Shown here one piece after another: positions 3,711-50,621 of a stretch of 64,000 nt of DNA. The DNA comes from an uncultured beta proteobacterium (GTDB taxonomy: Bacteria > Pseudomonadota > Gammaproteobacteria > Burkholderiales > Burkholderiaceae_C), in NCBI GenBank assembly GCA_903945325.1, contig CAJAVE010000269.1, positions 1-64,000 on the forward strand, written 5' to 3'. Both the position numbers and the translations under genes were made by a program. Every line of letters begins with the position of its first letter. Positions within the stretch are counted from its first letter, which is position 1. The notes under the pieces were generated by a model, which saw only the letters and a list, made by a program, of their open reading frames with translations, had not been told where the DNA came from and made no database searches.

Positions 3711-6700
3711 TGGTCAGACCTCATTCCTGAAATTTCACGCCATTGCCGACGTGAGGGTACCAAAAATTGTGGCGTTTCAACCAGTTCATTGGCGCCCAAT
3801 GTTGCCCAGGTTCCCTTTTTCCCGGCTATTTTCAACACTACCGTACTTTTTTGATCGGTACTGGTTTTACCAAACGCATACACCGGGGTCGATACGCCGT
3901 CGATCATGACGTCAACTGCACTCAATTGGCCCGTGGGCAAGCCTGTAAGAGGGTTGAAACTGAAATTGCTCGGTATGGCAGCGGGGTCGCAATAGGTCGC
4001 CTGGTCCGGGTTGGGTCTGACAGTCTTGCCTTTGACCTCGCCACCAGCCAGCACCAGACTGCTCAACACCATTTCATTATTCTTGGTGTCGGTTCCGGTG
4101 GTCGCGAGGGCTGGAAAATTGTGGTAATACCCATCATCGGTACTGGCGTTAAATTTCGTATCTCCACCATTGGAAATGAACAGCGCGTTATTGGCTCCCC
4201 TCTTCAAGGTGAATTTGTGCATGGTCGACAAATTGCTATTGGGCAGGGCTCGTGGAGTGGGCGTTGTCCAATTGAACCGGTCGTAGACCGTAATCACCCG
4301 TTGCGTCTTGGTCGCATCCGGGAAATCGGTCGATTCAATAGCCCGACCTGTTCCAAAGTGAACCATGATGCCCCCAAAGCCCGGGGCGCTCAGCACCGGC
4401 GAGGTGGTGATTGAAAGCCGGTCGGTGCCACTCTTGGCTTCAAACAGCGGAATGGGCGTGGTGCCAGACAAAAAGGCCGACTTCCAGTTGGAGGTAGTGG
4501 CACTTGAAACGTCGAACTTCCATACCCGGCCCAACAAGTCAGTGCCATAGACAAGGTCGGCCTTGCCGTCATTATTGGTATCAACCCAGTTCGCACCCAT
4601 CAGTCCGTTTGAACCCTGAGTATCGGTTGGAATCTTGATGTAATGGGTGCCTGCAGTCCAGGTGCCACTGCTGGGGCCGTCGACAAACAGCACATACAGA
4701 TAGGCACGCCCAGCGGTTGAGCCCACGCCATTGGGTACCAAAATGGCGTACTTGTCATTGTTCATGCGCACCACTGGGCTGGCCTGCTTGCTGATCGGGT
4801 GTTTCTGATAGTCACCAATGATGTATCCAAGGTCACTGCTGTCGTCAGAGGTAAACATCCATTTGTAAATGGTACCGGCGTTGCTCTCAGTGAGCGTCGA
4901 GGGTGAAGTGACATCCAACGCAAAAACCGCACGTCCACCTCGCCCCAGGCTACTGAACAAATAGGTTTTCCACAACGCTGACGTGCTGCTGCCCACCAGC
5001 ACGTCACCGGTAAAGGGGCTTCCGTCCATTCCCGACAGGATGGTGGAGCCTTGAGACAAGCTCCTCAGTCGACTCACCATGGGCGACGGCAAATACGACA
5101 GCACTGGCGCACCGGCATCGGTGCCAGTGGCTTTGAAGCCGTGCAGCATCCCGTCGTTGGAGCCCACCCACAGCAGCGAGTCGCGCGCCTTTTGGTCAGT
5201 AATGAAACTGGCATAGGTCGGTGCACCAGTGGGCAAAACGCCCATATTTTCAGCAACAGGGCGCGACTGCAGCCACGGCGACGAATTCACCACCATGCCC
5301 ATCACATTTTCATCGCTGCGCTTGCGCCATATCCCCACCGGTATCTCTTGCGTGCGGTCACCGCGCAGGTAGTTCATTAACTGTTCCCCCTGCGTGGTCG
5401 TCAGCGCACCCGTGCCGGTGCCGAGCAAGGCAGTCGCAAAACCTGTCTCGAAAGTGGTGGTAGTTCGCCAAGCCACCCCGGTATTGCCATCGTTGGTTAT
5501 CACCACTCGATCGGCGGCCGCTACACCTGTCAGCTTTTTGCCGGCATCCCAATCTGGGGTATCCGAAAACTGGCCGCTGCTCAGCAGTTTCTTGGCCTCA
5601 ACCGTTCCGTAAAACTCGTCCTTGTTGAAGTTGGAAATGTATTTGTAGCTCCCCTCTTCAATCGAAGTGCTGGAGGTTGCCGGTGACGAGTTACTCTTGC
5701 CGATAATATTGGACAAGGCTTTGCGCAACTGTTCTTCCAACTGATCCGGGCGGCGAGCCAGGTAGTACCCGTCAGGCGTTCCATCGGGACCGGTTGTTCC
5801 ATCGGCCTTGACGGCGTCCCATGATGCAACGGTGGTTGGCAACGCGACCTCGGTAAAAGTGCCTGTATTGGCTCCGGATGTCACTTTGGTGCTGGAAGTA
5901 AAGTTGCCGTATTTGGCTGCATACCAGAGTGGATCATTGACAACTGCATTCGCAGCGCCAACCATATTAAAGCGCGCAGTCACCGCGAAATTCTTGTCTT
6001 GCACGGCGCAGTAGCCAGCTGCCCCAGTCTTCTCCGGGATCGGGTTGACGTAGCAAGCCCCATCTGCAGCGGTTACCGTGTTGTTGTTCGTACCATCTGC
6101 GTTGGTATTTTTAAATGTGATGAAGGAGTCATAGGTGGTTGCGTTGGTCGCAGTGCGGTATGCGGCAACGCCGCACAAATAGCCATCCCGTCCAGTCAGC
6201 AAGGTGCTTCCATGATTCCAGTGCTGATGCGTCAGGTAGCGGCCATTGGCCGACGCACCGCCCGGTATCTTGGTCACACCGATCACACTGAAGCCGTGCG
6301 TTCCGGCCGCGCCCGAACAGTTGGCCGGGACATCGGTCGTAATTTTGATATCCCACCCGGTAGGGCTTGCCGAGTTGGCAACCAAGTCATATCGCAGAAA
6401 CCCTGTCAAGTCCATGTCGTAATCACCACCGAGCAAGCGGTCATTCCAGGTCAATATGAAGGCACCATGGGTGGCACTGGAACTGATCGACGCAAAGGTC
6501 AAAATGGCACCCGTGTTGTTACTCCACAAACTCTCGGGTGTGATGTAGACATACTTTTTGGGGTTGCTTCCCGGTATCAATACATCGATGCGCGCCGCAC
6601 CGCCGGACAACGATGCCGCCAGGGTCTTGACTTTAAGGGCATCCTGGATGAACTTCAAATCGGGTGGTGGAGTTGTGATGGTGCGAATTTTGGACGTATT

Positions 6701-37951: not shown

Positions 37952-38039
37952 AAAGGGGAACCATCAACAAATGTGCCCTCGCTGTCTTCCCCGACAGCGC
38001 ATGGGCGTAACGGTTGCGCGCTAAGGCGCACAACCACCG

Positions 38040-38225
38040 TGTTGGCCGGTATCCGGGCTAGTGGAGCAACTCCCATCGCCTTCCCAGGCGCTTGTTCAAG
38101 GCACCCAGTGGCTGTTGATGGGAACGGAATCGCGAAACGATTCGTCCACTTACCGTTGCGGGGGCAGCGCAGGTTAGGTTTGCCGCTAGCGGCGCACCCT
38201 CCTGCTTCCCGTTGAACTGCTGCGT
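38040..38225 (-). promoter_or_regulatory. Cobalamin riboswitch upstream of btuB
   Basis: Minus strand contains the B12-box-like AGCCCGGATACCGGCC, GCCACTGGGTGCC...CCTGGGAAGGCGATGGGAGTTGC, and upstream GGGAAGCAGGAGGGTGCGCC. Confidence 0.92.
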
Positions 38226-38299
38226 GTGAACCACGCCGCGAGAACCAACGCAAGAATTCTAAGGCAGTTTGCTTGACGTAACCCTACAATGTCTAGCCT

Positions 38300-38859: not shown

Positions 38860-38898
38860 ACCCCAACGATTGCACGCGATAGGCCTACAATCGTCCGT

Positions 38899-39069
38899 GT
38901 CTGCAGTGCCCGCCGGGCTTTATATTTCCTTGTACCAATGCTCTTAGAGCTCGGGCCTGGAACATTGCCTTGCTAGCGTGATCATCTCGCGTTAGATGAA
39001 CCCAAAGCTTGCGCTGACCTAGCCCACCTGAACCCCGGTTCAGGATGCCGGTCCGGTGGCACTGCAGAC
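38899..39069 (+). ncRNA. ssrS: 6S RNA
   Basis: Immediately downstream of zapA (conserved linkage). Perfect 12-bp terminal stem GTCTGCAGTGCC / GGCACTGCAGAC bounding about 171 nt; interior consistent with the rod and central bubble. Confidence 0.87.
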
Positions 39070-39175
39070 ACCTATTACCTATTTCTCCAATGAAAAAGCT
39101 GGGGAGTTCTCTTAAGTCACATCATGAGGTATCATGAAATTCCAACTACTTTGTTGGTACTTTTGATGGCACCAG

Positions 39176-40336
39176 ATGGCACTCTCAGACCTCCAAATTC
39201 GCCGGACTGATAAACCAGGTAAGTATGCTGACGGTCGCGGCCTCTTCCTACAGGTGACACCCCGCGGCGGCAAGTACTGGCGCTACTCCTACCGTTATGG
39301 TGGAAAGCAAAGGACCCTTGCTCTCGGAATCTATCCTGATATCGGTCTAGCCAAGGCACGCGAACTGCACCAAGAAGCTCGCTCCCAGCTTGCACAAGGG
39401 ATTGACCCCAGTGCCCAAAAGCAGGTTGTTAAAGCCCGCAAAGCCAACACCTTTGAGTCATTGGCTTCCGATTGGCTAAGTCGCCAGACCCTAAAAGACA
39501 TCACGCGAGACAAGCTGCACCTGTGGATTGAGCGTGAATGCCGTCCGTTGGCCTCTATGGAAGTGACAGCGATTACCGCACGTGACATATTGACGGTAGC
39601 CCATGTTGTGGAATCCTCCAGTGCTGACCGTGCCCGCAGAATAGTTGCGATGTGCGGCCAAATTCTGCGCTATGGCGTGGCAACTGGGCGAGCAGAACGA
39701 GACCCAACAGGTGATTTACGCGGTGCCCTTGCCGCGCCACCAGGTGGTAACTTCACAGCTATCACCGACCCCGTGAATTTGGCCAAGCTCATGCACGCCA
39801 TTTATGCCTTTCATGGAAATTTACTGACTGTATCCGCCCTCAAACTATCGGCACTCACATTTACACGGCCTGGTGAATTGCGGGCGGCCTTATGGACTGA
39901 GATTGAAAACGACACCTGGTCCATACCCGCAGCACGCATGAAGATGGAGCGCGACCACATCGTTCCGCTATCAACCCAAGCGTTATCTGTCCTGGAGGGC
40001 TTGCCGCGCACCAGCATATATGTGCTGCCAATGCAGAAAGATGATGATCGACCCATGGCGGCCAATACAGTGGCTGATGCCATCCGGAAACTAGGGTTTA
40101 AACACACCGCCCATGGTTTCCGGGCCACTGCGCGCACCATTCTGGATGAAGTACTGAATCAAAAAGTTGACCTTATAGAGCATCAGCTAGCTCATGCGGT
40201 CAAAGATGCCAATGGTCGGGCTTACAACCGCACAACGCACCTACCAGCGCGTAGGCAAATGATGCAGGTATGGGCCGACTATCTGGACAAGCTGCGCATT
40301 GGTGCGGACGTTATCCAACTACGCACAGCGACATAA
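39176..40336 (+). CDS. Tyrosine recombinase / phage integrase with DUF4102 Arm-type N-terminus (P4-like)
   Basis: LSDLQIRRTDKPGKYADGRGLFLQVTPRGGKYWRYSYRYGGKQRTLALGIYPDIGLAKARE; catalytic region HGFRATARTILDE, HQLAHAVKDANGRAYNRT. Confidence 0.93.
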   Translation: MALSDLQIRRTDKPGKYADGRGLFLQVTPRGGKYWRYSYRYGGKQRTLALGIYPDIGLAKARELHQEARSQLAQGIDPSAQKQVVKARKANTFESLASDWLSRQTLKDITRDKLHLWIERECRPLASMEVTAITARDILTVAHVVESSSADRARRIVAMCGQILRYGVATGRAERDPTGDLRGALAAPPGGNFTAITDPVNLAKLMHAIYAFHGNLLTVSALKLSALTFTRPGELRAALWTEIENDTWSIPAARMKMERDHIVPLSTQALSVLEGLPRTSIYVLPMQKDDDRPMAANTVADAIRKLGFKHTAHGFRATARTILDEVLNQKVDLIEHQLAHAVKDANGRAYNRTTHLPARRQMMQVWADYLDKLRIGADVIQLRTAT

Positions 40337-41474
40337 ATCAGTTTTGACCACGCCTAGCCATCGGCTGATCCCCGATGGTGAAAATGAGTTTCCCCTGACT
40401 CGCTGGCGCTGGTTCATTAATAGGGTGTTTAGGGGCGCGGGGATGGGTAACTTAGAGAATGGCACTAAGATCATTTACGAACCTGAGCCGGGCGAACCAT
40501 GCTGGCCATTTTGGGGGTTGCTTGAGGCGGTTACGGTTCCACCGACGCTACGCCTTAGCTTGGGCCAATCCGGCATCAGATTCAAAAAGATTCCGTCCGA
40601 TTTCTTTGCACGGTCAGAGCCAATTGGTCGTCAGGCCCTGAGGCTACTGCAACGGCGCACCATCGGGGAGTTACGCGTAGCAGCTACGGAGATACGCGCA
40701 GCAATTGCACACGCTGTCGTGGAAAGCACGGACATTGCCATCTATGACCTCATCACAAGACCGTGCATAAATGGTGGGGCTCAACTGCACATTGAGCTCG
40801 ACGACGCTCCATTGACAGCGCGTGAAATCAGTGACTTGCTTGAAAGCTGGGCAACAAAATGGGATGACCCAACCGGTCTACCAAATCGTGACGGTCTGAG
40901 CGACCTTGATGCGTTGCGCTGGTTCGGCCGACGTCAATACGGTGAGAAACTTTGGTATGGGTTGATTGAACCCGATGAATCAGAGATCTATGCTGTGTTG
41001 GCATTGATGCTTATTTGTGCAGCGGTACATGTAAGCCAACTCTATAAGGATTGCAGTGTTCCCAACCCTGCTGATCCAACGGTGTGGCAGCTAAAGGTCT
41101 TCGGCTGGGCAACTATCAATGCTGTGGAGGCCATCGCATATGCAGAACGCCTGGAATCAGAGCAAGAGATCAGACAGGACCATGACCGCAAGCAAGAAAC
41201 AAGTCTTGACGACGCGCTATCACAAAAAACTAGTGAACGGGCGATTCACGCCGCTACCAAGCGCCACGCACCAAGCAATGCTGCACGAGACTGGGTTCGC
41301 CAGGAATGGGCTCTCCATCACGACAGCTATTCCGGTAACAAGTCTGAGTTTTCCAGAACTTACGTTGCACGCGTCAAGAATGAGTTTCAGGATTCAAAAG
41401 GCGACCCACTGATCGTGACCGAAAAAACGATCCGTGACGTGTGGTTAAAGAGTCCCCCGGCTGCTGGCAAATAG
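40299..41474 (+). CDS. Uncharacterised island protein (391 aa)
   Basis: Long open frame in the element between integrase and AlpA; C-terminal RDWVRQEWALHHDSYSGNKSEFSRTYVARVKNEF...VTEKTIRDVWLK. No family recognised. Confidence 0.7.
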   Translation: MVRTLSNYAQRHKSVLTTPSHRLIPDGENEFPLTRWRWFINRVFRGAGMGNLENGTKIIYEPEPGEPCWPFWGLLEAVTVPPTLRLSLGQSGIRFKKIPSDFFARSEPIGRQALRLLQRRTIGELRVAATEIRAAIAHAVVESTDIAIYDLITRPCINGGAQLHIELDDAPLTAREISDLLESWATKWDDPTGLPNRDGLSDLDALRWFGRRQYGEKLWYGLIEPDESEIYAVLALMLICAAVHVSQLYKDCSVPNPADPTVWQLKVFGWATINAVEAIAYAERLESEQEIRQDHDRKQETSLDDALSQKTSERAIHAATKRHAPSNAARDWVRQEWALHHDSYSGNKSEFSRTYVARVKNEFQDSKGDPLIVTEKTIRDVWLKSPPAAGK

Positions 41475-41574: not shown

Positions 41575-41874
41575 ATGTCACCCAAAATCACATCCGTTAA
41601 AACGCCAATTGCATCCAGCATTCCGGCGGCAAAACCAACAATCCATCACTCGGTCTTCGACGCCTACGCCGACAGCGCCTTTGTTCGAGAATCACAACTG
41701 GTACGTAGTCCCAAGCGTCCGGAGCATCCAGCACCACTGCCATTCAGCGCACCGACCCTTTGGCGCAAAGTGGCGGCAGGTACTTTCCCCAAGCCCATCA
41801 AATTATCAGAGCGAGTGACATGCTGGAAGGTCAGTGAAGTCCGGGCCTGGATGACGGCACAAGCCATGGCGTAA
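41575..41874 (+). CDS. AlpA-like HTH regulator/excisionase
   Basis: FSAPTLWRKVAAGTFPKPIKLSERVTCWKVSEVRAWMTAQ, the AlpA/Xis-type winged-HTH pattern. Confidence 0.82.
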   Translation: MSPKITSVKTPIASSIPAAKPTIHHSVFDAYADSAFVRESQLVRSPKRPEHPAPLPFSAPTLWRKVAAGTFPKPIKLSERVTCWKVSEVRAWMTAQAMA

Positions 41875-41887
41875 GGATCGACACACC

Positions 41888-44800
41888 ATGAACGCCAACA
41901 CCATGCAAAAGGCCGCTGGAGCGACTAACTCCAACGGCCAACACACTGACACCAACAGTGTCAATTCTGGCACTAACGACACCACCAGTAAAGTCGTTGC
42001 GCCGACCCCAGTCCCCAAACCTAACAGGGCCGCCATTCTGGATGCGCTGATGGTGCTATACGATCCAGCTGATGTGGTCGAGCTTCGTGCAATTAGCACC
42101 AACGGCCGCAAGCGTACTGATTCTGGCTACTTTGATGCCGACCACCGTGACGATCTAGCGGACTATGCGATGGGACTGAGTGAAAGTGGTGCTGCGGTTT
42201 ACACCACGTTAAACGCAGTTAATCCCCAGTTACTGAGTCGATATTCCAATCGCCTTGAAGTCAACGCCAGTTCCACTACCACCGACAAGGATGTGACACG
42301 GCGGCGCCAGTTGCTAATTGATCTTGACCCAGTGCGTCCATCTGGCACAAGTGCGACGGACGCACAGCTTGAGGCAGCTAGGATCAAAGCTTGTGAGATT
42401 TACACCTACCTAGAGAGTATCGGTTGGCCTGCGCCTGCAACTGCCTTATCAGGCAACGGCTACCACCTGCTTTACGCTATCGATCTGCCCAACGATGACG
42501 CTTCAACTGCGTTAGTGAAGGCGGTGTTGCTGGCGCTGGCTGATCGCTTTGACGATGCCCACACCAAGGTCGATCGCGCTGTTTTCAATGCGGGGCGGAT
42601 AACCAAGCTGTATGGCACTGTTGCCAACAAGGGCGACCATACAGCGACCGCCCCATGGCGGCGGTCATGCCTGATGGACACCCCTGCGCGGGTCGTGGTG
42701 AAAGTGGCGCAGCTTGCCATGGTTCAACCACCAGCACGGGCAGCGACACCCGACACAAGGCCTGCTACTGTTGCCGATACATCCACAGCGGGAAGTTTCA
42801 ATCTGGAGGACTTCTTTGGACGGCATAGCATTGCCTACACCACCGACCTGCACGATGGTCGTGAGCGGTTCAAGCTGGCACGGTGCCCCTTCAACCCCGA
42901 GCACGTCAATGGTGAAGCAGCGGTGTTTCGTCCACCATCGGGGCCACTGGGCTTCAAGTGCCAGCACGATTCCTGTTCAGACAATCACTGGAAGCAAGTA
43001 CGGGAGTTGCTGGATGGGCCGCAACAGGGCGGCGTGAACTCAGTGGCCGCTGGTGCAAGTAATGTGGGGGCTACATTTCATGTAGACACTATTTCAAGCG
43101 AAGACGAACAGCGCTTGCGCGGTGCCCTTGCTGCTATTCCAGCAACCGCCTGTCTGAAAAACCATACTGCAGCGCAGGTCATCGGCATGGCCTTGCGCCA
43201 TATGCCCAGTGGCATTGCCGAAGACCTAGGCAGGGCAATGTGTGGCGAATGGGATGCATTGACCGGTGGAGTGGCACTAGCGGTGTTTGACAAAAGCGAT
43301 CCGCACTATTCGGCACGTAAGCCGCTGGGACTGGCTAGCGTGTATGCGATGGCGCAGATGCATGGTTGGTCGGATTCAGAGCCTTGGTCAGCACCAACTC
43401 TATTGCCTGTTGGGTTGCCCCCTGTGATGCCTTTTACCGACGACCTACTGCCTGTAGCTTTGCGGCCCTGGGTGATGGATATTGCCCACAGGATGCAATG
43501 CCCCCCGGACTTCTCAGCAGTTGGCGCTATTGCAGCGATATCTAGCCTGATCGGGGCTCGTGCTGTGGTTCAACCTAAGCAACACGATAACTGGCAGGTC
43601 GTTCCAAATCTTTGGGCACTCATTGTGGGCAGGCCGGGCGTGATGAAATCCCCGGCGCTTGGTCAAGTCATGATGCCCTTGAATCAGATGGAAGCGACCG
43701 CGCGCAAGCTATTTCAGACGGTGCATGAGTCATGGGAGCTGGACTGCAAGGTGTCAAAGATTCAGGACGATGCCAATGAGAAGAAAGCTAAGGGCCTGAT
43801 TGACAAGGGCAACACAGCAGCAGCGCGTCAACTACTGACACCCAGCGCCACTCCGGCAGAACCCACCATGCGCAGCTACGTGGAGACCAATACCACTATG
43901 GAGGCTCTGGGCGTAACGCTCCAGCAGAATCCTTGGGGTTTGATCGTTTATCGAGATGAGATTTTTAGCTTTTTGACAACGTTGGATAGTGAAGACAACC
44001 AGGAGGCTAGAGGCTTCTACCTTCAGGGCTATGACGGAAACCAAGGCTACAAATTCAAGCGCATCACTCGCAGTGAGACTTGGCTGGATCGTGTGTGCAT
44101 TGCCATGCTGGGTGGCATCCAGCCAGGCAAAATTCAACGTTACGTGAGGGATGCGGTATCTGGCGGTAATGGCGATGATGGCTTGTTGCAACGGTTTGGT
44201 TTGACGGTATGGCCAGACATTGAAGCAGAGTTCAAACTGGTTGACCAATGGCCAGACACCCAGGCTAAACAAGCCGCCTGGGCAGTATTTGAACGCCTGG
44301 CACCGTTGCAGCCTCTGAATGACACCGAGCCCGTGGTGTGGCGATTCACTCCAGAAGCACAAGCCCTGTTCTTTGATTGGCTGGTTCCCTTTGAAACCGA
44401 GATTCGCAGCGATGAACTTCACCCAGCCATGGTGTCCCATCTGGCCAAGTACCGCAAACTAATCCCGGCCTTGGCGCTGATCTTTGCCCTGATTGATACA
44501 CCTGACAGCGGTGGCGTGATCCATGAAGCTGAACTGAGGCGCGCACTGGCTATGGGGGAGTATCTGCGTAGCCATGCAAACCGCCTCTATGCGGCGGCAA
44601 CGACCCCAGAGACCAAGGCCGCTGAAACCCTACTATCCAAGATCAAGGCAGGAAAGTTGGTTGGCGGCGACGGTGCAGTCTCAAGCAGGTTCACACCCCG
44701 GCTAGTAGCTAAGAAAAGTTGGTCTGGCTTGGGATCGTCAGCTGATGTACGCAAAGCCGCCGACTTGCTGGTGGACTATGACTACTTGCGCCGTGAAGTA

Positions 44801-44899
44801 GAGCCAGTTGGTGCATCCGGTGGCAGACCGAGCGTGTGCTATGTAATCAATCCAGAAGTACTTCAAGGCGTTACAGCGGGAACCCCCTTGCATTGTTGA
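41888..44899 (+). CDS. DUF3987-type protein with primase-polymerase-like N-terminus (1003 aa)
   Basis: N-terminal RRQLLIDLDPVRPSGTSATDAQ... GNGYHLLYAIDLPNDD..., KLYGTVANKGDH; zinc/CHC-like CPFNPEH...FKCQHDSC; DUF3987-like WALIVGRPGVMKSPALGQVMMPLNQMEA, VYRDEIFSFLTTLD. Confidence 0.82.
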   Translation: MNANTMQKAAGATNSNGQHTDTNSVNSGTNDTTSKVVAPTPVPKPNRAAILDALMVLYDPADVVELRAISTNGRKRTDSGYFDADHRDDLADYAMGLSESGAAVYTTLNAVNPQLLSRYSNRLEVNASSTTTDKDVTRRRQLLIDLDPVRPSGTSATDAQLEAARIKACEIYTYLESIGWPAPATALSGNGYHLLYAIDLPNDDASTALVKAVLLALADRFDDAHTKVDRAVFNAGRITKLYGTVANKGDHTATAPWRRSCLMDTPARVVVKVAQLAMVQPPARAATPDTRPATVADTSTAGSFNLEDFFGRHSIAYTTDLHDGRERFKLARCPFNPEHVNGEAAVFRPPSGPLGFKCQHDSCSDNHWKQVRELLDGPQQGGVNSVAAGASNVGATFHVDTISSEDEQRLRGALAAIPATACLKNHTAAQVIGMALRHMPSGIAEDLGRAMCGEWDALTGGVALAVFDKSDPHYSARKPLGLASVYAMAQMHGWSDSEPWSAPTLLPVGLPPVMPFTDDLLPVALRPWVMDIAHRMQCPPDFSAVGAIAAISSLIGARAVVQPKQHDNWQVVPNLWALIVGRPGVMKSPALGQVMMPLNQMEATARKLFQTVHESWELDCKVSKIQDDANEKKAKGLIDKGNTAAARQLLTPSATPAEPTMRSYVETNTTMEALGVTLQQNPWGLIVYRDEIFSFLTTLDSEDNQEARGFYLQGYDGNQGYKFKRITRSETWLDRVCIAMLGGIQPGKIQRYVRDAVSGGNGDDGLLQRFGLTVWPDIEAEFKLVDQWPDTQAKQAAWAVFERLAPLQPLNDTEPVVWRFTPEAQALFFDWLVPFETEIRSDELHPAMVSHLAKYRKLIPALALIFALIDTPDSGGVIHEAELRRALAMGEYLRSHANRLYAAATTPETKAAETLLSKIKAGKLVGGDGAVSSRFTPRLVAKKSWSGLGSSADVRKAADLLVDYDYLRREVEPVGASGGRPSVCYVINPEVLQGVTAGTPLHC

Positions 44900-44930
44900 T
44901 AAATCAGTAATGCCTCAGGTGGGGGCTACG

Positions 44931-44979
44931 AAACCTACAAAACCCACTGAGTGACATCAGTATGGGGTTTTGTAGGTTT
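44931..44979. terminator. Large perfect inverted repeat downstream of the DUF3987 gene (terminator or replication-associated hairpin)
   Basis: AAACCTACAAAACCC (44931-44945) / GGGTTTTGTAGGTTT (44965-44979), 15/15 complementary, plus inner ACTGA/TCAGT. Confidence 0.65.
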
Positions 44980-45249
44980 TGCTGTCTTCTCCCAGGCACC
45001 GCCAGAATATATGGGGTAGTAATGGATATTCACTGGCTTAGGTCACCACTGGTCGTGGCATAGGAAATTTTTAAATTTTTTGTGAACAAAAAATGATGCC
45101 GGAGCTCAAGGTTGGGTGAAATTTACAAAATGGGTACGAGGGCAGTACCAACGGGTCAAAGGTAGAAAACAAAAACACCCCCCCCGCATCAAGCCCTGCA
45201 CAGTTTTCAACCCATGCCCACCCCCTAATGCGTGGTCATGTGCCCCTAC

Positions 45250-46300
45250 AAGTCGCTTCGCTTGGTTTCCAGGTCACATCACCGCTTTTCACACGTTCGG
45301 CGGCTGGGTATGTCAATCAGTGCAATAGGCGTTGCTACGCCCCTTGCAGAGGCTGCAGAGGTGCTTGGTAAGTGCTTCGCAATGGTGGTCAGTGCGCTGT
45401 GGCGCAGACGTGGCTACGGCTCGCTGGCGCATCGTGCTGGAGTCGCTGTTGCCAGCAGCGTGACCATGCAGCCCTTTTTAAGTCGTGCCTTTGTTAAAAA
45501 AGGCCACATCGTCACTTTCACCAGATCGACGGTTGGTTGTGCTGGTCAGTGGCAAAGGCTGGGTACAGCCATTGCCAGGATTCACGCATTCAAAGCATGT
45601 GCTTCGCAAGTGTCAATCAGTGCGCTGTGGCGCAGACATGGCCGCTACGCTCTCAGCTTCGACCAGCAGCGTGACCATGAACCACACTGCAAGTCGTGCC
45701 TTGGTTGCAGAGTGGCACATCGTCACTTGTCATGGGTTTAAAGTTCTGTGGGTCTGATCAGTGGCAAAGGCGGATTACCGCCATTGCCAAAATGCACAGT
45801 GTCATCACCAGTTGCTTCGCAAAGATGGCAGCATGAGCGCTGTGGCGCTGGGTGATGATCTCGCCTCGCTTGCGCATCGTGGCTGGCATTCCAGATCCAC
45901 CGCTACTGGTGATCCACAGCTACGGCAAAGTTACATAACGCCCCACTGCATGAAGTGCAGGTCCAGCCACTCGCAAGCTCGCTTTGTGGCCCTACACCGC
46001 TACGCGCCCTTTGGATTTACGCAGTAGGCGTTATGCAAAATTGCCTTCACTGGAGCGGTCACCAGCCGCCTGCACTCCCAGGCCGCTTCGCGCCCTACGT
46101 ACAGTCGTCTGTCGCCCTAGCGGTGTTCTGGCGTTGTGGCATATGTCAGGCGCTTTGCGCATTGTTCTGGTTTGTGGCCTACGGCCAGGCATCTTGTGTT
46201 TGCCCCTGCCCACCCTGGGCTGGCTTGCTTCGCAAGCATCGCCCGCGCGGTCTGCCCGTCTGCCCCCCAAGGGGGCTCCCTCAGAACCGCGCAAAGCCAC
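45250..46300. repeat. Non-coding, hairpin-dense region with about 210-230 bp degenerate tandem repeats
   Basis: Related blocks near 45391-45580, 45619-45790 and 45815-45960 (e.g. agtgcgctgtggcgcagac at 45391 and 45619; cagcagcgtgaccatg at about 45457 and 45663; ggcaaaggcNgg...ccNgccattgcc at 45551 and 45763). Confidence 0.7.
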
Positions 46301-46604
46301 ACCGCCGGTCATGCCCTTGTTGCCACCAATAATGCCAGCTCTATCACCGAGCACTTTTCACCCCTGTGCTAGAAGCAAGAAAAAGAAGCCCGCCACCATG
46401 AGGCAATCTAAGAATCATGCGCTGGTGAGGGGCTTCAATCCTACCAACTGGGGTAGCTGTCGCGCTACGAGGCACACCTGGATCAAAAGTATGAACGCGG
46501 CTTGGTGATGCCGATCAAGCACAGTCCTAATTAGCTTTGAAGCAAAGCCCAGGGCTGTTCGACAATCAAACCAAAAAAACCCACCACGGCTAAAAAGCAA
46601 ACGA

Positions 46605-49600
46605 TTAATTGAAATTGACTACCACTGTGAACTGTTCCCCTGTGCGAGTCAATGTCAAGTAATACACACCTCGGAAACCATTGTCTGCAGCACTTTTTGC
46701 CAATGTACTCGTCACTCCAACTGATTCTGCTGGGATGAGATCACCCCCACTAAGCAAGGTTAAGTTTGTGCTGCTGCTTAGCACTGCACTTCCATTTTGG
46801 AATTCATATTGACTGATAGAAAATGTTTCATTCGATTTATTTGAAATCGTTGAACTAAACTGCGACCCCGCCTGCTTTATACCGTTCATTGACGACCCCG
46901 CCGACGAGGAGCCAGTTCCAAAAAGCTGATTTAAATCGGACACTGCTGTAATCGCAACCGTTTTCACAACGCTGTTAAGTTGGCCGTCATTGACAACAAG
47001 TGATGCAACGTACGTTCCCGCCACATCAACGGTGTAAGTTGGCTTAACTGCGGTCGATGAAGACAAGGCAGCATCACTGCCAGCAGGTTTTGAAGTCAAC
47101 GTCCAGGCGTAGGTCAGCTTGCCACCATTGGCATCAGAACTGGCGCTGCCGTCCAATATGACCACACTACCGGCGACCACGCTTTGAGCAATGCCTGCAT
47201 TGGCTACCGGTGCGACATTGACAGCAACGCTCGACTCAGGCTTGTCCACCCAAAACCCAGTGCCATTGCCCAGCGTCTTGCTGCCTGCGGTGAAGTCCAG
47301 ATATCCCTTGCCGGTGATGTAGTCGGTCAGTGCCGTGCTGCTTTGTGCTTCTAGGTCTGGAGCATAAAAGTACCACTTAGACTGGGCACTGTCCCAGGCC
47401 CATAGGGTGGTGAGCCCATAGGCCGGTGGGGTGGCCCTTAAGCTGGTGTTAAAGGCGGTGGGGCTTACGTCGTTACCCGTGGCGACCAGGTTCCAGCCTT
47501 TGACCAGGTTGTCATTGGTAAAGTTAAACGGCGCTGCACTTTGTAAGTCGAGAGTGGCTGGTGCAGTGGCATTGACCCAGTAGCCTTCGCCGGGGTTGAT
47601 GTCGCTGAGGATGCCATAGCCTTTGCCAGTGGTGTAGTCCTGCAACTCTGCAGGCATCAAGCTGGGGGTGTAGAACTTCCAGCCTGGGGTGCTGGGGTCC
47701 CATTTCCACACGGTAGTGATTAATGATGGGTCACCAAAGGTGGTGGCAACGGGCAAAGGCTGGCTTTGGCTGTTGCCCAGCAGGTTCCAGCCTTTCAACA
47801 GAGTCAGCGACGTGCTGGCTGATACAGCCACCGTGTGCGGGCTTCCTGGAGCATTACTGGTGATGGTGACAGTACCTACGCGACTGCCCGCCACCCTGGG
47901 GCTAAAGGTCACGCTCAGGTCGCAAAAGCCCGATGCGCCCAAACCAGCGCCACAGTTGTTCGTGACCGCAAAATCGCCCGTGGTGCTGATGCTGGTCAGG
48001 CTCAAAACGGCACCACCAGTATTGGTCAGCTTGATGGTTTGTACTGCGCTGGTGCTGCCCAGTGCCGTCGCCGGAAAGCTCATTGTGGTGGGGTTGAGTG
48101 CCACCACTGGCACTGCCAACCCCGTCCCGCTTAAGCTGACGGTGTTGGGGCTGTTGCTGGCATCGCTGGTGATGACCACGCTGCCACTCAAAGGGCCAAC
48201 AGCAGTTGGGGCAAAGGTCACGCTGATGCTGCAACTAGCAGACGGAGCCAGTGTGGCGCCGCAAGAAGTGATTTTGGCAAAGTCGCCAGTTGCCGTGATG
48301 CTGCTGATGTTCAGCACGGCACCACCGGTATTGCTCAGGGTGATGGCTTGGGCTGCGCTAGAGGTGCCCTGCTTTTGGCTGGCAAAGTTTTTGCTGGTGG
48401 CGCTCAGGCTCAGCAGAGCACCCTGGCCTATGCCAGTGAGGGCGATTGTGTGCGGGCTGCCTGGGGCATCGCTGGTTAACGTCAATGTGCCGGTACGTGT
48501 GCCGCCAGCTGTGGGTTTAAAGCTGACATCCAGCGTGCAAAAACCACCTGCACCAATACCTGCGCCGCAGTTGTTGGTCACATTGAAGTCACCGGTCGCG
48601 GCGATGCTGGTGATGTTCATTGTTGCCGTACCGGTGTTGGATAGGATTACCGTTTGTGCAGCGCTGGTGCTGGCGATGTTTTGCTTGGCAAAGGCTTGGG
48701 TTGCTGGTAGGCCGCTAACAACTGGTACATCTTTGAAAGTGGCCGTGACAAACTTGGCTGCATCCATGGTGACGGTGCAGGTGGCTGCGGTGCCGCTACA
48801 GGCCCCGCTCCAAGCAATCAGATTGTTCGCAGGGCTGGCGGTTAGGGTAACCACATCCCCGGTGAAATAACCGGTGGAACTGGCTACGCTAATACAAGCA
48901 ATGCCATTGTAGGCACTACTGGTAATTTGCCCCAGTCCAGTAGAACTTACACTCAAAATCAAAGGTCCAAGGCACTGCCCACCGCGCACCAGCCGGACAC
49001 CGTAGCTGTTGATCCGGTCGTAGTAGTAGCTGGCGAGTCCATAGCCTAAATGGACGAACCATGTGAAGCTTGGATGCTCGGCGCTGAACGAACCCGACCA
49101 AAAGAACGAACTACCTGCAGCCGGAAAGACGCTGGTGTTGTATGCTGGAGTAGTCTTTCTATAGTCGACCAAGCTTATAAGTTCATCCGCGCTGGGAATC
49201 CGCCAGTCGTTTTTGCCATTAAAACTCTTACTTACTGCTTGAGCCTGCTCAAACGTCATGCTCGACACGACACCTGTGCAAGTACTGCCATTCCAGCTTT
49301 GTCCCTCAGCACAGTGTTTCCACATTAAATTGGTCGGTATATGTGTCACCGTGCCATCACCATTGTCTCTATAGTCGCTGGTGGGACGCGAAATATCCAG
49401 CAAACCGCCAACAGACTGCCCACCGCGCACCAGCCGGACATTGCGGGGGCTGCTCCGGTAGCCATCGTAGACGTTGCCTAAGCCGAAACTGATGTGCCAC
49501 GCGTTGCTGGAACCGGCGGCGTAGGGAGAACCTGACCAATAGGACGAGCTTGGTGCAGCTGGAAAAACCACTGAGTCAATTGCCGGATTAAAGACTGTTC

Positions 49601-49922
49601 GATCCACAATCGTCTGCAATTCTCGAATATTGGGCACCCGCCAATCACTCTGCCCCGCAAATGTCAGAGTGCCAGTTAATGCATTGGCCTGATCAAAGGT
49701 ATAAGCGCTGGCCTTGCCCGTGCAAGTCGTCCCATTCCAAGTCTGCCCCATTGAACAGCGCATCCAGACCAGCCCAGTAGTTGGGTCGGTCACCGTGCCG
49801 TCGTCATTGTCCGAATAGGTTTTTCCCGCCAACGCCGGGGTGATTGATCCACAGACCAATACCAGCAGCGCCAGAAAACGCAAAAAGGCGAAGCGAGCAA
49901 GAAGGAGTGACAGTGCATGCAT
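46605..49922 (-). CDS. Secreted multidomain protein: two DUF1566 domains, three choice-of-anchor-D repeats, GWNL repeats, PKD domain
   Basis: Signal peptide; YSDNDDGTVTDPTTGLVWMRC...WRVPNIRELQTIVD and NGDGTVTHIPTNLMWKHC...WRIPSADELISLVD; three copies of SAxQTIxLxNTGxAxxxITSIxxTGDF; C-terminal PVANAGIAQSVVAGSVVILDGSASSDANGGKLTYAWTLTSKP (PKD). Confidence 0.85.
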   Translation of the reverse strand: MHALSLLLARFAFLRFLALLVLVCGSITPALAGKTYSDNDDGTVTDPTTGLVWMRCSMGQTWNGTTCTGKASAYTFDQANALTGTLTFAGQSDWRVPNIRELQTIVDRTVFNPAIDSVVFPAAPSSSYWSGSPYAAGSSNAWHISFGLGNVYDGYRSSPRNVRLVRGGQSVGGLLDISRPTSDYRDNGDGTVTHIPTNLMWKHCAEGQSWNGSTCTGVVSSMTFEQAQAVSKSFNGKNDWRIPSADELISLVDYRKTTPAYNTSVFPAAGSSFFWSGSFSAEHPSFTWFVHLGYGLASYYYDRINSYGVRLVRGGQCLGPLILSVSSTGLGQITSSAYNGIACISVASSTGYFTGDVVTLTASPANNLIAWSGACSGTAATCTVTMDAAKFVTATFKDVPVVSGLPATQAFAKQNIASTSAAQTVILSNTGTATMNITSIAATGDFNVTNNCGAGIGAGGFCTLDVSFKPTAGGTRTGTLTLTSDAPGSPHTIALTGIGQGALLSLSATSKNFASQKQGTSSAAQAITLSNTGGAVLNISSITATGDFAKITSCGATLAPSASCSISVTFAPTAVGPLSGSVVITSDASNSPNTVSLSGTGLAVPVVALNPTTMSFPATALGSTSAVQTIKLTNTGGAVLSLTSISTTGDFAVTNNCGAGLGASGFCDLSVTFSPRVAGSRVGTVTITSNAPGSPHTVAVSASTSLTLLKGWNLLGNSQSQPLPVATTFGDPSLITTVWKWDPSTPGWKFYTPSLMPAELQDYTTGKGYGILSDINPGEGYWVNATAPATLDLQSAAPFNFTNDNLVKGWNLVATGNDVSPTAFNTSLRATPPAYGLTTLWAWDSAQSKWYFYAPDLEAQSSTALTDYITGKGYLDFTAGSKTLGNGTGFWVDKPESSVAVNVAPVANAGIAQSVVAGSVVILDGSASSDANGGKLTYAWTLTSKPAGSDAALSSSTAVKPTYTVDVAGTYVASLVVNDGQLNSVVKTVAITAVSDLNQLFGTGSSSAGSSMNGIKQAGSQFSSTISNKSNETFSISQYEFQNGSAVLSSSTNLTLLSGGDLIPAESVGVTSTLAKSAADNGFRGVYYLTLTRTGEQFTVVVNFN

Positions 49923-50621
49923 GACGGAATCCCTTGATTTCTATTGCCACTATTTGTTGCTATTATTGGTCTATGTTACTTGCATACCCGCATGGTCATG
50001 ATGACATGGCACAACAAGCACTTATCAGCGGGCGCAGGCACCCACTGGCAAACAGAGCTATATAGCGGCTAAGAGCATGGCTAGATCGGCTCAGGTGGGC
50101 TTATGGCGTGATGCTTACCCAACGCCACCCTCTGGGAGTTCAGGCACAAGCGGTGAGGCGCCGGGGCCTCTGGAAGAAATAGTTAACATTTCACAATGTG
50201 AAATATCACTACAAAGCCGTGATTTATCCGAACCGATATCTACCCGATAGGCTGACTCACATTGCCTCACTATGTGGTCCGAGCTATTGAAGTCTATCCA
50301 GACATCATCACACTTCTTGGGATTCCAGCTACATACATCTAGAACTTCTGATAGAAGTATTTGATAGCTGTCCCCGATGTACTACCCTTCCCAAATAGCC
50401 CACCTCTAGCGATATGCAGCCGGTAGGCTAACTGAGTGTGATCACCCCGATTGATGGGCCAATACCGTGTCAAAATACCACGCACAGTAAGTCACAAAAT
50501 CTCAGCCAACTGTTGGTCTTTTTGTTGGTACTTTCACCAATTTTTAAACTTTTCCATTGGTACGACTGAACCCTGGTTCAGGATGCGGGTCCGGTGGCAT
50601 TTGCAGACACCTAACCTTTCC

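Follow-up and report, generated by a model that had tools for sequence, protein, structure and literature searches.

Nucleic-acid structures found by covariation are usually filed as RNA, and two of the large covarying RNAs, GOLLD and ROOL, have a link to mobile DNA. Single-stranded DNA can fold into functional sites too: at plasmid ssi and Frpo sites, folded single-stranded DNA starts complementary-strand synthesis on mobile DNA (PMC7690428; PMC11541004). Very stable DNA mini-hairpins have GNA or GNNA loops with any nucleotide at N, for example GCGAAGC with a Tm of 78°C (PMC4686876), and the common stable RNA loops are GNRA and UNCG tetraloops (PMC5815330). Here we analyzed a 64,000-nucleotide stretch of DNA (the window) from an uncultured beta proteobacterium. 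A non-coding stretch of about 1.1 kb at 45228-46310 is shown below to be a strand-specific folding array, which comprises a four-way-junction core and tandem units of a hairpin A and a hairpin B and is kept by compensatory change.

A sequence-only reading of this DNA had described two hairpins with an internal A.A mismatch, in which a T-A pair of one is a G-C pair in the other, and had proposed a structured RNA or DNA element under selection. Both hairpins were found, GGCAAAGGCTG-GGTA-CAGCCATTGCC at 45551-45576 and GGCAAAGGCGG-ATTA-CCGCCATTGCC at 45763-45788, with the mismatch and the exchanged pair as described. The likeness is not due to chance: a covariance model of the repeat unit, made from homologues of other genomes with the window units left out, still detects both of them. 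Beyond the earlier description, the strand that folds is the minus strand, opposite to the one written there, both hairpins are a minor part of an array of about 1 kb, and the loop rules favor folded single-stranded DNA over RNA. On the folded strand, the A.A mismatch of the written strand is T.T, G.T or T.G in all 23 homologous units. Across these units, both partners have changed in seven of the 11 pairs of hairpin A, and pairing is kept in 98.4% of the hairpin's cells.

The two hairpins are the hairpin-A parts of direct repeats spaced 211-212 nt apart. Repeat unit 1 (45667-45790, minus strand; unit model R2, 74.0 bits, E=9.4e-17) consists of hairpin A, a linker and a long hairpin B with a G.G mismatch, and folds under DNA parameters. 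Its hairpin A (45763-45788, minus strand) is made of 5 bp, a T.T mismatch, another 5 bp and a loop of 4 nt that reads TAAT on the folded strand. In repeat unit 2 (45456-45578, minus strand; R2, 67.1 bits, E=4.6e-15) the corresponding loop (hairpin A at 45551-45576, minus strand) is TACC, and repeat unit 3 (45228-45349, minus strand; R2, 30.8 bits, E=4e-6) is degenerate. The G.G mismatch of hairpin B is kept in 23/23 units, and the number of hairpin-A copies per array, where found, ranges from one to five. The core domain (45903-46062, minus strand; core model R1) comprises an extended helix, about 23 bp in length, which a four-way junction closes. The junction bears two very small hairpins, whose tri- or tetraloops are mostly GNA/GNNA among homologues, and a third arm. 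At the 5' side of the folded strand, alignment A1 and the comparison of upstream DNA revealed a flanking structured domain (46063-46310, minus strand) that is conserved to GCGCGGTTCTGAGGGAGCCCCC. Some arrays elsewhere are interrupted: at L045:4635-6170 a WYL-domain gene (4977-5774) splits the array between core and units, and at L055:3924-5540 (also in L013) the 5' domain is broken by an insertion that appears to be an IS with a transposase gene.

We used two covariance models, R1 for the 172-nt four-way-junction core and R2 for the 136-nt repeat unit. The core alignment behind R1 (A3) holds 29 sequences with the window core among its rows; we excluded the pattern matches L052, L060, L065, L066, and L073 from the core alignments, since their core is partly missing or replaced. 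The 23 sequences of the unit alignment (A4) all come from outside the window, and R2 thus contains no window sequence. The core has 54 pairs with 94.9% paired cells, and 19 of them show double changes; the double-change cells number 132 versus 52 in shuffles, none of 500 shuffles reached 132, and sliding the partner by one column cuts pairing to 31-36%. For the unit, 18 of 40 pairs show double changes and 97.5% of cells are paired, with 59 double-change cells versus 12.5 in shuffles (0/500 reach 59). The covariance test is strongly positive for the homologues (29 core sequences and 23 units) and supports the earlier proposal that a structured RNA or DNA element is under selection. Uncompensated stem changes, which were to count against it, are rare, unpaired cells making up 2.5% in the unit and 5.1% in the core.

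Only the minus strand folds properly. The consensus folding energy is -119.4 kcal/mol for the minus strand versus -98.3 kcal/mol for the opposite strand, the minus strand gives the better single-sequence fold in 27/29 cases, and R1 scores 127.2 bits on the minus strand of the window versus 21 bits on the plus strand. On the folded strand, G.T cells (132 and 66, sum 198) outnumber A.C cells (14 and 5, sum 19), a wobble bias that identifies the strand and not the sugar, i.e., RNA or DNA. On these strand tests we rejected a plus-strand RNA. A protein-coding role was also rejected: ORFs that cross the array are mechanical, and its evolution proceeds by compensatory stem substitution.

The loops bear on the choice between RNA and DNA. 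Two adjacent core hairpins, closed by C-G, carry the triloops GAA, GCA, GTA, GGA, and less often AAA, or alternatively the C-G-closed tetraloops GACA, GATA, GCCA, GTGA, GAAA, and GCAA. On the core tree, the two hairpins underwent at least 14 and at least 17 loop changes (at least 31 together), with the loop rule mostly kept. In a census of C-G-closed loops whose stems have 3 bp or more, the folded strand of 22 arrays gave GNA, GNRA, and GNYA counts of 142, 13, and 15, versus 1, 0, and 2 for the opposite strand and 11, 7, and 5 for shuffles; we claim no p-value because the counts of homologous arrays are not independent. The rRNA controls gave GNA/GNRA/GNYA counts of 0/6/1 for 23S and 0/4/0 for 16S, together 0/10/1. 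The folded-strand loops follow the d(cGNAg)/d(cGNNAg) rule that describes stable mini-hairpins of DNA. Triloops exist in RNA too, and we take the loop rules as evidence, not proof, of DNA folding. Comparison among loci found neither a conserved sequence nor a conserved promoter ahead of the folded strand's 5' end, where the DNA is unrelated among loci or is att-arm or REP-like, and a search for sigma70-like promoters on both strands of 44850-46700 found none. Based on the loop chemistry and the missing promoter, we infer that the working molecule is single-stranded DNA and not a transcript, a reading that presupposes a single-stranded phase of the island.

The main rival is a large structured non-coding RNA made from the minus strand, resembling GOLLD or ROOL in scale and in its link to mobile elements. 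Covariation on one strand with tolerance of G-U, the size of about 0.8-1.2 kb and the linkage to integrase islands would all fit such an RNA, in which the T.T/G.T exchanges of hairpin A would also be acceptable as U.U/G.U. However, GNA triloops prevail and GNRA loops do not exceed GNYA loops, the opposite of 16S and 23S rRNA; moreover, no conserved promoter was found upstream of the 5' end, and the loci inspected show no T-run terminator where the array ends on its 3' side. The array matched no Rfam family at gathering or relaxed thresholds, the sole hit being a SNORD104-like chance match (E=0.92), and it was matched neither by the int-alpA RNA model (RF02996) nor by the models of large ornate non-coding RNAs (GOLLD/ROOL/OLE). 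We consider a large RNA rather unlikely. Transcription from an adjacent tRNA was rejected because the orientation of the array relative to the tRNA varies among loci.

The array is carried by an 11.5-kb integrative element with the order 6S-RNA attL, integrase, int-alpA RNA, AlpA, DUF3987, array, Lcl_C, and attR. The integration site is the 6S RNA gene (38895-39074; E=3.8e-7), which scores 41.7 bits, slightly under the Rfam gathering threshold of 46.4. Its 3' end forms attL (39037-39075, plus strand), which has 12-mers in common with attR (50575-50614, plus strand), a near-identical repeat of about 38 nt that marks the right end of the element. Domain matches identified a tyrosine integrase (Arm-DNA-bind_3, Phage_int_M, Phage_integrase; 39176-40336, plus strand), an AlpA regulator (41575-41874, plus strand), a DUF3987 protein (41888-44899, plus strand) and a surface-type protein with Lcl_C, HYDIN-Ig, and PKD domains (46605-49922, minus strand). 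The array occupies the gap between the latter two genes; the DUF3987 gene and the folded strand face each other with their 3' ends, and the Lcl_C protein, located between array and attR, is apparently cargo. The known int-alpA RNA (RF02996; Rfam match at 40347-40425, plus strand) is separate from the array, and Pfam and PADLOC searches gave no matches for a 391-aa element protein between integrase and AlpA (40299-41474). Downstream of the DUF3987 gene lies a perfect 15-bp inverted repeat with a 19-nt spacer (44931-44979), likely a terminator that separates this gene from the array. A cobalamin riboswitch (75 bits) was detected at 38027-38264 on the minus strand.

The core model matched 16 of 400 genomes of the family (about 4%) and 14 of 141 genera, and in a class-wide sample of 369 genomes its sole match was the window's own genome, which has five core-model matches. 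A second, diverged array copy (G000:C269:71506-71812, i.e., L137:7506-7812; unit 119 bits, core 31 bits) lies about 25 kb rightward on the same contig, beyond the window. Pattern and model searches revealed copies in Rhodoferax, Polaromonas, Hydrogenophaga, Comamonas, and other Comamonadaceae; the isolate Rhodoferax antarcticus ANT.BR has two of them (L069 and L088). The carriers are mobile genomic islands of freshwater Comamonadaceae, and the folding element was previously uncatalogued. Many copies, in either orientation, have a tRNA gene (Pro, His, Arg, Asn, Phe, Ser) no more than a few hundred bases away. An analogous element of about 14 kb, in an almost complete genome from the window's genus (G409), is bounded by the tRNA-Pro 3' end at both ends and has the order int, AlpA, AAA_25 ATPase, type I restriction genes, SIR2, array, tRNA-Pro. 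A distant-sensitivity search of phage and plasmid records gave zero array matches, and a pattern scan of IMG/VR matched one contig. A short REP-like intergenic repeat of Comamonadaceae (TTGCTAC..TGATAGCTGCTTGCGCA..GAGGGCTAGCGGCC) flanks many arrays on both sides in the same orientation (L042, L057, L092, and others). Two distant relatives of the core sit in near-perfect tandem repeats, L132 (G096:C9; at least 7.2 kb at 99.99%, period 8.8 kb) and L133 (G193:C1; at least 5.1 kb at 99.98%, period 8.0 kb). The tandem units carry genes for an integrase and a CHC2/Toprim primase, and L132 additionally has a Tox-ART-HYD1 toxin with Imm70.

What would a folded single strand do on such an island? AAGCGG is the consensus of PriA primosome assembly sites, although none of the papers searched pairs the motif with PriA. 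In 22 arrays we counted the motif 70 times in the folded strand versus four times in the other strand, a count that is not independent of homology since the motif sits in a conserved stem. In phiX174, the F-G intergenic region has AAGCGG at a hairpin foot, beside the mini-hairpin GCGAAGC. Many of the islands also encode a primase or helicase (DUF3987, Toprim, CHC2/DnaG-like, PriCT_2, AAA_25). Taken together with the precedent of plasmid ssi sites, the motif and these enzymes make a priming platform the most economical proposal. The island would become single-stranded during mobilization, or during strand-displacement or rolling-circle replication of an excised form; the minus strand would then fold into a loading platform for complementary-strand synthesis, on which either host PriA, via the repeated AAGCGG motifs, or an island-encoded primase/helicase may act. 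The array would thus be a multi-copy functional relative of the single-strand initiation sites of plasmids and phages. With less confidence than for the nature of the molecule, we infer that priming is the most likely job of the array. To the full proposal, a strand-specific folded single-stranded DNA site that probably primes complementary-strand synthesis via PriA or an island primase/helicase, we give tentatively a little less than an even chance. Its main difficulty is that the orientation of the array relative to the target tRNA and to the island genes flips among loci, which counts against it because a single transferred strand predicts a fixed orientation, unless the origin flips too. 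That no relaxase was seen among the proteins scanned also counts against it.

A broader possibility, which we regard as doubtful, is that the array represents a new class of modular folded-single-stranded-DNA machine on chromosomal islands, with a four-way-junction core and a variable number of hairpin units, one strand of which is selected at the DNA level and would recruit replication or recombination proteins in an as yet unrecognized single-stranded phase.

Folded single-stranded DNA could instead serve as a recombination, nicking or transfer-origin site, similar to attC, oriT or REP/RAYT, for an enzyme of the element or the host. The imperfect hairpins, which are strand-specific and keep the same mismatches (T.T/G.T in hairpin A, G.G in hairpin B), the position near the island ends and the core outer arms resembling attC boxes (GCATAAC.../...GTTATG) are consistent with such a site. 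However, the AAC/GTT triplet of RYYYAAC/GTTRRRY that attC requires is not invariant, the C-G pair (columns 33/131) departing in 7/29 sequences (CG 22, GC 3, UG 1, other 3), and we rejected an integron attC. Furthermore, neither cassettes nor conserved ORFs lie between the units, the integrases detected belong to the P4 type or to other phage types, and no relaxase was seen among the island proteins scanned. A site of this kind is improbable. Neutral quasipalindrome correction, in which template switching during replication keeps arms matched without selection and can yield compensatory double changes in any palindrome, is very improbable indeed, because it would erase mismatches and wobbles, and the T.T/G.T (23/23) and G.G (23/23) mismatches, G.T wobbles and GNA loops are kept, as are the linkers and the four-way junction.

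The loop statistics used here separate DNA from RNA folding and offer a test that may be extended to further orphan structured elements. If the single-stranded DNA reading is true, phage-integrase islands with restriction and SIR2-type cargo have a single-stranded stage, which would bear on the movement of defense islands between bacteria; if the molecule is RNA instead, it represents a new family of large non-coding RNA with a repeat architecture.

Compared with known systems, the array resembles REP/BIME palindromes in its arrayed imperfect hairpins with a central mismatch, but differs by its long conserved units and core, its island location and its strand-specific G.T bias. The int-alpA RNA shares the element with the array but is a distinct RNA of 79 nt, located between the int and alpA genes. 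With integron attC the array has in common bottom-strand-specific folding, CATAAC/GTTATG-like outer arms, mismatched stems and a terminal branched structure, whereas the invariant AAC triplet, the cassettes and IntI are absent from what we observed. GOLLD, ROOL, and OLE are likewise large, covarying and multi-helix, but the array has loops that follow DNA rules, a variable unit number, no conserved promoter and no Rfam match. Unlike ssi, sso, and Frpo sites, it consists of tandem modules with their own four-way-junction core on chromosomal islands, and in contrast to Frpo its folded stem carries no -10/-35 boxes and its priming role is putative. Like these sites and the PriA primosome assembly sites, it would be a strand-specific folded single-stranded DNA with imperfect hairpins on mobile DNA, its minus-only fold and DNA-type loops pointing to structure conserved at the DNA level, and it bears AAGCGG at the hairpin feet of the folded strand and the GCGAAGC mini-hairpin that is also present in phiX174.
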